30,561 nucleotides of DNA from a virus, in IMG/VR virus record IMGVR_UViG_3300017748_000063, positions 1 through 30,561 of that record; one strand, written 5' to 3'. Below, in pieces: positions 1,542 through 23,900 of the stretch. Every line of letters begins with the position of its first letter. The stretch's first letter is position 1. Under the pieces are notes generated by a model that saw only the letters and a list, made by a program, of their open reading frames with translations, had not been told where the DNA came from and made no database searches. The position numbers and the translations under genes are program-made.

Positions 1542-1658
1542 ATACTTGGCCTACATAACAATACAAGTATAAAGTTTTAGTAGTTGTAAGACTATTAAGT
1601 TTGAGTGGTGATTATGGAAGGGCACTATAGCTACTGTCCTTCCGTAGTCTAATTACAA
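1542..1658 (+). promoter_or_regulatory. Structured leader upstream of the 1680 gene
   Basis: Hairpin ATACTTG/CAAGTAT (1542-1548 with 1564-1570). Next comes a larger fold: TTGTAA/TTACAA (1574-1579 with 1653-1658) encloses a 15-bp stem made of GATTAT plus GGAAGGGCA (1610-1624) pairing with TGTCCTTCC plus GTAGTC (1635-1649). That stem needs three G-U pairs, which points to pairing in RNA and not only in DNA. It ends about 20 bases before the next ATG. Confidence 0.5.
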
Positions 1659-1679
1659 ACATAAAAATATAAAAGTATT

Positions 1680-3353: not shown

Positions 3354-3380
3354 ATCCACACATAATACTTGTTTTTAGAT

Positions 3381-11495: not shown

Positions 11496-11587
11496 ATTGT
11501 AGGATAAATTTTTCTTAGTAAGAAGTCTATTAGCTGTCCTACAACGGAGTGAATACCGCATATAACAGTTAATAGAAAATTTTTCAA
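11496..11587 (+). promoter_or_regulatory. Structured leader before the primase (riboswitch or attenuator candidate)
   Basis: Stem A: TTGTAGGA (11497-11504) with TCCTACAA (11537-11544). Stem B: CTATTAGCTG (11527-11536) with CAGTTAATAG (11566-11575), one G-U pair. The 5' arm of B lies inside the loop of A and its 3' arm lies outside, so A and B form a pseudoknot or compete. Small hairpins TTCTT/AAGAA (11512-11524) and CGG/CCG (11545-11558) fit in between. A terminator follows at once. No known riboswitch class was recognised. Confidence 0.5.
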
Positions 11588-11624
11588 TAATATAGGGGCA
11601 CTTACTTGTCCCTATATTTTTATT
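11588..11624 (+). terminator. Intrinsic terminator directly before the primase
   Basis: Stem ATATAGGGGCA (11590-11600) with TGTCCCTATAT (11607-11617), one G-U pair, 6-base loop CTTACT, then a T-rich tail. The primase ATG follows 7 bases later and no promoter fits between, so transcription into the primase must read through this hairpin. Confidence 0.75.
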
Positions 11625-20782: not shown

Positions 20783-20828
20783 GCTGAGGACCTTTATACC
20801 TCCATTTTTTTTAAATTTTTCCATTGAG

Positions 20829-20855
20829 AAGGGTCCGAACGGGCCCTTTTCTTTT
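20829..20855 (+). terminator. Rho-independent terminator
   Basis: Stem AAGGGTCC (20829-20836), loop GAAC, stem GGGCCCTT (20841-20848) with one T-G pair, and a T-rich tail. It separates the nuclease transcript from the polymerase gene, which must therefore have its own promoter or rely on readthrough. Confidence 0.88.
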
Positions 20856-22807: not shown

Positions 22808-23680
22808 ATGGGATATACAAAACCAACAAGTTGTACTGCAGAAGATTTATCTGCAGTACAATATCCAAATCATGGAAAAACTTATACAGTTATTCGTCAT
22901 AAATTTCTTATTGATGCTGCAAGAAGTATATTAAAAACTCACGGTTTCAATGTTAAAAATGAAGAATACAGATCTACAGCTAATGGTAACATTGCTCAAG
23001 GTATATATCAAATAGAGTCTACACAAGATTCTGAATTAGGTATGATGTTTGCTTGGTCAAACTCATATGATAAAAGCACAAGATTTCAATGCGGGATAGG
23101 AGCTTTTGTAAGAGTTTGTGGTAACGGTATGGTCTGTGGTGATATGGCATCATATGCTAGAAAACATACAGGTAATGCAGATAAAGAAGCTTTTAATCAT
23201 ATTATGTCTCAAGTTAAACAAGGTAACAAACACTTTACTCAGTTAGTAAAAGATAGAGATAATTTTAAAAAACTTGATTTATCTAGAAAAGAACAAGCTG
23301 AATTAGTTGGTAGATTATTTATTAATGAAAATCTTATTGACTCATCACAAATATCTTGTATTAAAAAAGAAATAGATAAACCATCATATGATTACAAAGA
23401 AGATGATACTGCTTGGACATTTTATAATCATGTTACACATGCATTAAAAAAGTCTCATCCTAGGTCATGGATGTCTGATCAACAAAAGTTTCATCAGTTT
23501 ATGATTAGTGAATTATTTAGTGTTTCACAATTAAAACCTAATGATTCTAGTGATATGCATGTAGAAGATCATGAAATAGTATTACCAGATGGTAGAACTA
23601 TAGATGAATTAGATGCTGCTGAACCAATGAATGAAACAGATGATTGGGATGATGATTGGGATGGTGAGCATTTTATGTAA
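22808..23680 (+). CDS. DUF932-like phage/plasmid protein, 290 aa
   Basis: The core (YTVIRHKFLIDAARSILKTHG, MFAWSNSYDKSTRF, and CGIGAFVRVCGNGMVCGD near residues 96-115) matches the DUF932 family of phage and plasmid proteins, whose biochemical role is not settled. The C-terminal 60 residues are strongly acidic with DDWDDDWDG, perhaps a DNA-mimic or partner-binding tail. It lies 30 bases after the polymerase and is followed directly by a hairpin and the structured RNA candidate. Confidence 0.8.
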   Translation: MGYTKPTSCTAEDLSAVQYPNHGKTYTVIRHKFLIDAARSILKTHGFNVKNEEYRSTANGNIAQGIYQIESTQDSELGMMFAWSNSYDKSTRFQCGIGAFVRVCGNGMVCGDMASYARKHTGNADKEAFNHIMSQVKQGNKHFTQLVKDRDNFKKLDLSRKEQAELVGRLFINENLIDSSQISCIKKEIDKPSYDYKEDDTAWTFYNHVTHALKKSHPRSWMSDQQKFHQFMISELFSVSQLKPNDSSDMHVEDHEIVLPDGRTIDELDAAEPMNETDDWDDDWDGEHFM

Positions 23681-23700
23681 AATCTGAGTCATGTCAGATT
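23681..23700 (+). other. Hairpin after the DUF932-like gene
   Basis: Perfect 7-bp stem AATCTGA (23681-23687) with TCAGATT (23694-23700) and loop GTCATG, starting one base after the stop codon. No T-run follows. It adjoins the 5' end of the three-way-junction element. Confidence 0.5.
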
Positions 23701-23808
23701 GAATTAAATAAAGGTGTTGAAGGGTATAAAAAGGTGCCTGACGAGGTTATACCAACTTAATAAGAGAGAAACCACTTGCGGTCCCCACCTCTTGCCTTTA
23801 TTTAATTC
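23701..23808 (+). ncRNA. Candidate structured RNA with three-way junction
   Basis: A perfect 14-bp closing stem GAATTAAATAAAGG (23701-23714) with CCTTTATTTAATTC (23795-23808) encloses two arms. Arm 1: GGTATAA (23723-23729) with TTATACC (23747-23753). Arm 2: AAGAG (23762-23766) with CTCTT (23789-23793), topped by ACC/GGT (23771-23773 with 23780-23782). It contains no gene and ends 4 bases before tRNA-Arg, so both may come from one processed transcript. No known RNA family was recognised; size is about 108 nt, much smaller than GOLLD or ROOL RNAs. Confidence 0.55.
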
Positions 23809-23812
23809 TTAT

Positions 23813-23886
23813 GCACTCATAGCTCAACTGGATAGAGCGACAGCCTTCTAAGCTGTAGGTTGTAGGTTCAAGTCCTACTGAGTGTA
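23813..23886 (+). tRNA. tRNA-Arg (anticodon UCU)
   Basis: Complete cloverleaf: acceptor GCACTCA with TGAGTGT (one G-U pair), D-arm GCTC/GAGC with GG in the loop, anticodon stem ACAGC/GCTGT with loop CTTCTAA (anticodon TCT), T-arm GTAGG/CCTAC with loop TTCAAGT, discriminator A. The CCA end is not encoded. It reads AGA/AGG, and AGA is the main arginine codon of these phage genes, so the tRNA probably supports translation late in infection. An antisense frame over it is an artefact. Confidence 0.95.
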
Positions 23887-23900
23887 CTAAAATAAAAATT

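Follow-up and report, generated by a model that had tools for sequence, protein, structure and literature searches.

Phage-borne structured RNAs near tRNAs are represented by GOLLD and ROOL, which span several hundred nucleotides, and intercistronic hairpins that stabilise or process 3' ends occur in bacterial as well as phage mRNAs. Theta ribozymes, which are HDV-like and lie beside phage tRNAs, have been described as another route to tRNA 3' ends besides processing by enzymes (PMC10879173). Here we analysed an IMG/VR virus record of 30,561 nt (the window), in which an element of about 130 nt fills the gap between a DUF932 gene and a tRNA-Arg. Like GOLLD and ROOL it is a structured phage RNA near a tRNA, but it is far shorter and matches no Rfam family besides tRNA. 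With the theta ribozymes it shares the small size and the adjoining phage tRNA, whereas these act at tRNA 3' ends and the element is located 5' of the tRNA, without a match to an HDV-type family. As in the intercistronic 3' hairpins, a stem-loop at the 3' end of one message separates two co-directional genes; unlike there, a hairpin of fixed sequence precedes a stem that is replaced between close relatives. No report of such elements was found in the literature. The element is a phage structured RNA, not a canonical terminator or a GOLLD/ROOL-like RNA and most probably not a ribozyme; as judged from sequence comparison, it is real, structured and unnamed, and its partner is the 3' end of DUF932, not the tRNA. 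The features of the locus are as follows.

22808-23680, + strand: DUF932 gene (Pfam PF06067); the element abuts its 3' end, and every homologue has the gene before the element
23681-23700, + strand: small hairpin AATCTGA-GTCATG-TCAGATT; its core CTGAGTCATGTCAG is identical across 12 related genomes
23701-23714, + strand: 14-bp closing stem, 5' arm; every homologue has a long stem, of differing sequence
23723-23753, + strand: inner stem GGTATAA/TTATACC; three of the seven pairs are lost in relative L001
23762-23793, + strand: inner hairpin AAGAG/CTCTT with an inner ACC/GGT helix; kept in L001, with one additional A-U pair there
23795-23808, + strand: 14-bp closing stem, 3' arm
23809-23812, + strand: TTAT spacer between element and tRNA; RNase P would be expected to cut at 23812/23813
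23813-23887, + strand: tRNA-Arg(UCU), a neighbour outside the element; most relatives carry it at another genomic place
23888-23900, + strand: 13-nt leader from the tRNA to the next ATG (23901), A/T only save for one uncounted C at the tRNA end

The pairings that a sequence-only reading had listed for this gap proved exact, namely the 7-bp hairpin at the 5' side, the closing stem of 14 bp (GAATTAAATAAAGG paired without mismatch to CCTTTATTTAATTC) and two inner stems (GGTATAA at 23723-23729 with TTATACC at 23747-23753, and AAGAG at 23762-23766 with CTCTT at 23789-23793), as did the distance to the tRNA, since the stem ends at 23808 and the tRNA starts at 23813, leaving 4 nt. Its statement that no gene fits also held in that no convincing one was seen, the sole + strand frame in the gap being 45 codons long and running into the tRNA. 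Among perfect 14-mer inverted repeats with a spacer of at most 120 nt the closing stem is the only instance in the whole window, and a repeat of this kind occurred in 3 of 60 dinucleotide-shuffled windows. Folding led to a z-score of -3.0 for 23660-23900 (tRNA included) and of -3.65 for the element alone, with an energy minimum that leaves the GGTATAA/TTATACC stem unused.

Searching Rfam 15 at the gathering cut-off returned the tRNA only, and relaxing the threshold to E 10 added nothing except an antisense-strand match over the tRNA. Similarly, a + strand scan for intrinsic terminators found none at the 14-bp stem, which is not followed by a T run, while the same scan detected a canonical terminator at 20826-20851; a GC hairpin with a T run is also present near 3380. 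These two terminators are likewise stem-loops in intergenic gaps, but the element differs from them in the missing T run, a stem of mostly A-T pairs and the extra conserved hairpin. Hammerhead, theta and other ribozymes were rejected due to the lack of a family match at E 10 and the wrong geometry: the interior does hold the hammerhead-type strings CUGACGA and GAAAC, both kept in L001, but the stem II that joins CUGANGA and GAAA in a hammerhead, which cleaves at NUH, was not seen between them by inspection, and no Rfam ribozyme matched.

The interior of the window element was found only in L001, the nearest relative, as the sole real match of an IMG/VR search with ACTTAATAAGAGAGAAACC was L096, which is the L001 contig; the other 14 matches represent one stretch of terminase-like coding sequence, as judged by eye, and were discarded. 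In L001 the closing stem is kept with a single change, from A-U to G-U, and the AAGAG/CTCTT hairpin gains a pair, but GGTATAA/TTATACC falls short by 3 of 7 pairs. This break leaves the particular three-way junction proposed before unsupported; its stems are present, yet it is just one possible interior fold. The GGTATAA/TTATACC stem is probably non-functional as drawn, and an alternative AGGG/CCU hairpin is compatible with both sequences. A closing stem that encloses two or three inner hairpins is, by this sequence comparison, supported. Identity between the window and L001 is 90.3% for the element, compared to 95.1% upstream, 96.7% downstream and 97.3% for the tRNA, so the element evolves faster than its flanks between the two.

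We defined class A as genomes with the CTGAGTCATGTCAG hairpin at the DUF932 end, followed by a long stem. This arrangement was found in 12 uncultured phages, i.e. the window, L001-L009, L122 and L280. The 14-nt core is invariant in 12 of 12 and sits at the DUF932 stop in all of them except L280, where about 30 nt intervene. As the stop codon itself varies, being either a TAA just upstream of CTGAGTCATGTCAG or a TGA within it, the conservation is not explained by protein coding. Five class A records searched as a whole with up to 2 mismatches contained a single copy each. Since the hairpin is invariant within the clade, covariation is unable to test it there. Of 32 matches in a 16-mer search about two-thirds lay in unrelated sequence, and a shifted 16-mer gave one true extra match, L388, which is the L280 contig; the idea that the 16-mer is a promoter was dropped, as it occurs only once and promoter-like matches nearby are at chance level. 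The carriers form one clade on the DUF932 tree (100/98); in the same position, its sister clade (97/95) carries another hairpin, AATCA-CTGACA-TGATT, together with a stem. In a third DUF932 group without the element the next gene overlaps DUF932 or starts directly after it, indicating that the element is not essential to the DUF932 gene. Core, pairing and position are conserved.

The long stem follows the fixed hairpin directly in every class A genome, with a sequence that depends on the lineage, and the ten class A elements folded gave z-scores of -3.2 to -6.4. Four stem types were distinguished: type a in L002, L003, L004, L005, L009 and L122, type b in L006 and L007, type c in L008 and L280, and type d in the window and L001. 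When arms were exchanged in silico among 10 genomes, own arms paired with -19.3 kcal/mol on average compared to -7.2 for swaps between types and -13.2 for the best swap, a partly circular comparison as the end of pairing, judged by eye, defined the limits of the element. Compensatory pairs were also present within types, four in type c (L008/L280), three in type a and one in type d (window/L001). The compensatory change that had been named as support applies to the long stem, which stays paired across homologues, and not to the inner GGTATAA/TTATACC stem, which is broken in L001. L005 and L008 share 87% identity in the DUF932 protein and 51% in the element, and L003 and L005 share 58% and 84%, respectively; the stem types are thus at odds with the DUF932 protein relationships, and the whole module seems to have been exchanged or rewritten while the fixed hairpin remained. 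In 8 of 9 tRNA-less genomes the 3' end of the stem is located 11-17 nt upstream of the next start codon, and the leader behind it has 0-9% G+C in 8 of 9, although this composition may mean little as A/T-rich leaders are common in the window genome. In the window this place is taken by the tRNA, whose end is 13 nt upstream of the next ATG. In L280 the gap from stem to start codon is 34 nt and a micro-ORF, MKIIVVWP, begins in that leader; as a separate observation, NIVVIWP or MKIIVVWP recurs as a C-terminal or micro-ORF peptide just upstream of the next gene in L003, L168 and L280, in one case as an 11-codon ORF (MSPNIVVIWPC).

Ten of the 12 class A genomes have no tRNA beside the element and most carry tRNA-Arg elsewhere, which shows that the element does not include the tRNA. 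The tRNA-linked RNA of the sequence-only reading is thus not borne out; its proposal of a new phage RNA holds as far as the element is structured, non-coding and without an Rfam match besides tRNA, but not as a compact three-way junction tied to the tRNA. Most class A genomes have their tRNA-Arg at a second site, locus X, consisting of the conserved TTATTAAGTTTGAGTGAG, a fast-evolving hairpin and the tRNA about 4-6 nt later. TTATTAAGTTTGAGTGAG contains TAAGTTTG, which resembles the Bacteroidota -7 promoter box TAnnTTTG. Locus X was seen in the window (1590-1660), L396-L401 and L403. Its hairpin arms gave -19.2 with their own partner and -9.5 when swapped. The hairpin is kept without the tRNA in the window (at about 1590-1660), L397 and L401, and in L401 apparent remnants of a deleted tRNA tail lie behind the intact hairpin. 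A further arrangement of DUF932, a MazG-like gene (labelled by eye), another hairpin and a tRNA was found in L164, L166 and L168, and the tRNA-Arg of L337, L375 and L381 has no such hairpin upstream. Hairpins are thus retained where the tRNA is missing, and a tRNA tends to sit directly behind a hairpin.

Taken together, the element may be a cis-acting intercistronic RNA and act as the 3' boundary of the DUF932 message, a function to which we give an even chance. The element would be transcribed, a protein or a nuclease would recognise its fixed hairpin, and the long stem would both supply a stable 3' end to the DUF932 message and keep upstream sequence away from the unstructured leader of the next gene, allowing separate expression or decay of the two genes. 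For this purpose the long stem would need only to be a stem, its sequence being free. Where tRNA-Arg occupies the spot, as in the window, RNase P would cut at the 5' end of the tRNA and the DUF932 mRNA would then end in the 14-bp stem. The locus thus offers a testable case in which selection keeps an RNA structure while its sequence is replaced at a fixed phage gene boundary.

An unlikely alternative to this 3' boundary is a site acting at the DNA level, such as a palindromic hot spot for cargo insertion or recombination, with the 14-nt core as its left edge and variable hairpins and cargo (tRNA, a thioesterase-like gene, small genes) exchanged to the right of it. Such exchange would fit hairpin types at odds with the protein (the pairs L005/L008 and L003/L005 above), the varying cargo between the element and an SPL-like gene, and the tRNA that moved between two hairpin loci. 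However, no integrase or repeat was noticed there on casual inspection, and recombination alone requires neither a hairpin that is always directly 3' of DUF932 nor a near-fixed distance to the start codon. That the element is a 5' leader structure aiding tRNA maturation, the processing partner suggested earlier, seems quite unlikely to us: tRNA-Arg does lie some 4-6 nt behind a fast-evolving hairpin at several places (locus X, L164/L166/L168 and the window), but the element stands without an adjoining tRNA in 10 of 12 genomes, the locus X hairpin does so in the window, L397 and L401, and the tRNA-Arg of L337, L375 and L381 manages without such a hairpin.

The compact and stable fold, the conserved small hairpin with its invariant 6-nt loop and the 3' end that RNase P would free in the window could also suggest a small phage RNA that acts in trans after its release by RNase P and a second nuclease. 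We regard this as improbable, since promoter-like matches at chance level give no evidence of an own promoter and a body mostly replaced between close relatives would be unusual for an RNA with base-pairing targets. Equally disfavoured, and of low probability, is an ordinary intrinsic terminator or an unspecific mRNA-stabilising stem, for which the long stem between co-directional genes would be expected; the + strand scan was negative here and positive at 20826-20851, no T run follows the stem, and the fixed 14-nt core would be left unexplained. Finally, a self-cleaving ribozyme is hardly credible: both hammerhead-like strings are retained in L001, but neither a family match at E 10 nor, by inspection, a hammerhead stem II was found, and a theta ribozyme beside the tRNA would be tied to tRNA 3' ends (PMC10879173) whereas the element lies 5' of the tRNA.

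More distant relatives carry a different single-copy element after DUF932, which we termed class B (48 records, 39 distinct stem pairs). Mostly located 70-110 nt from the DUF932 stop, it consists of stem 1, a bulge whose 5' side bears ACCAAC, stem 2, often a UUUUUGCAUU loop, and the closing strands. The class B element is covarying; as the set was selected by pairing, own-versus-swapped values are not independent evidence here. A covariance model built from 15 class B elements (R1) detected a single clear copy in each of nine class B records and recovered, in addition, the elements of L305, L040 and L294, which are outside the training set, at the expected places (E 7e-5 to 1e-3). Applied to the class A genomes and the window, R1 gave no convincing match and none near 23.7 kb; its best score in the window was 13.5 bits, elsewhere, while class B genomes in which the loop is conserved reached 56-73 bits. 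Given this miss, a direct relationship between class B and the window element was rejected. No Rfam match was obtained for the class B element either. In L019, L049, L080, L228, L020 and L325, hydrophobic, single-TM-like peptides of 23-26 aa (e.g. MTNIILYFVVAVLCFYLCSKADIGK) are encoded at a constant position between the DUF932 stop and the class B element.

It is possible, though doubtful, that the DUF932 genes of a large group of uncultured phages are often followed by a single-copy structured RNA element of an undescribed family, read by a phage protein, possibly DUF932. Just as tentatively, this family would comprise lineage-specific modules (the CTGAGTCATGTCAG hairpin, the AATCA-CTGACA-TGATT hairpin, or the ACCAAC bulge with the UUUUUGCAUU loop) on rapidly replaced stems. 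If a phage protein indeed reads these modules, they would represent a new phage post-transcriptional control system; otherwise, the locus illustrates that structured candidates beside tRNAs need not be tRNA-related.

In either case the element provides an entry point to DUF932, a protein family of phages and plasmids for which no convincing fold match was obtained here: the predicted structure (mean pLDDT 81.7) had no convincing match in the PDB, so that RNA binding by DUF932 stays a guess, and DUF932 is no more than a possible binder of the element. No DUF932 relatives were found among 50,697 annotated phage records, while they are plentiful in IMG/VR; the SPL-like protein was absent from the annotated phages searched, and BLASTN against annotated phages gave tRNA-type matches only, among the matches listed. 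The top-ranked polymerase match among isolates was Cellulophaga phage phi14:2 with 34% identity. Two MAG contigs carry DUF932 relatives, although the bin labels need not be hosts. L143/L157 is a 245,646-bp IMG/VR contig with two DUF932 loci, and it may consist of two phage genomes joined together. Elsewhere in the window, 11496-11620, before the primase gene, shows a possible H-type pseudoknot (TTGTAGGA...TCCTACAA interleaved with TCTATTAGCTG...CAGTTAATAGA) followed by a strong hairpin (TATAGGGGCA/TGTCCCTATA), and 320-760 and 1000-1350 are long non-coding stretches with many stable stems.
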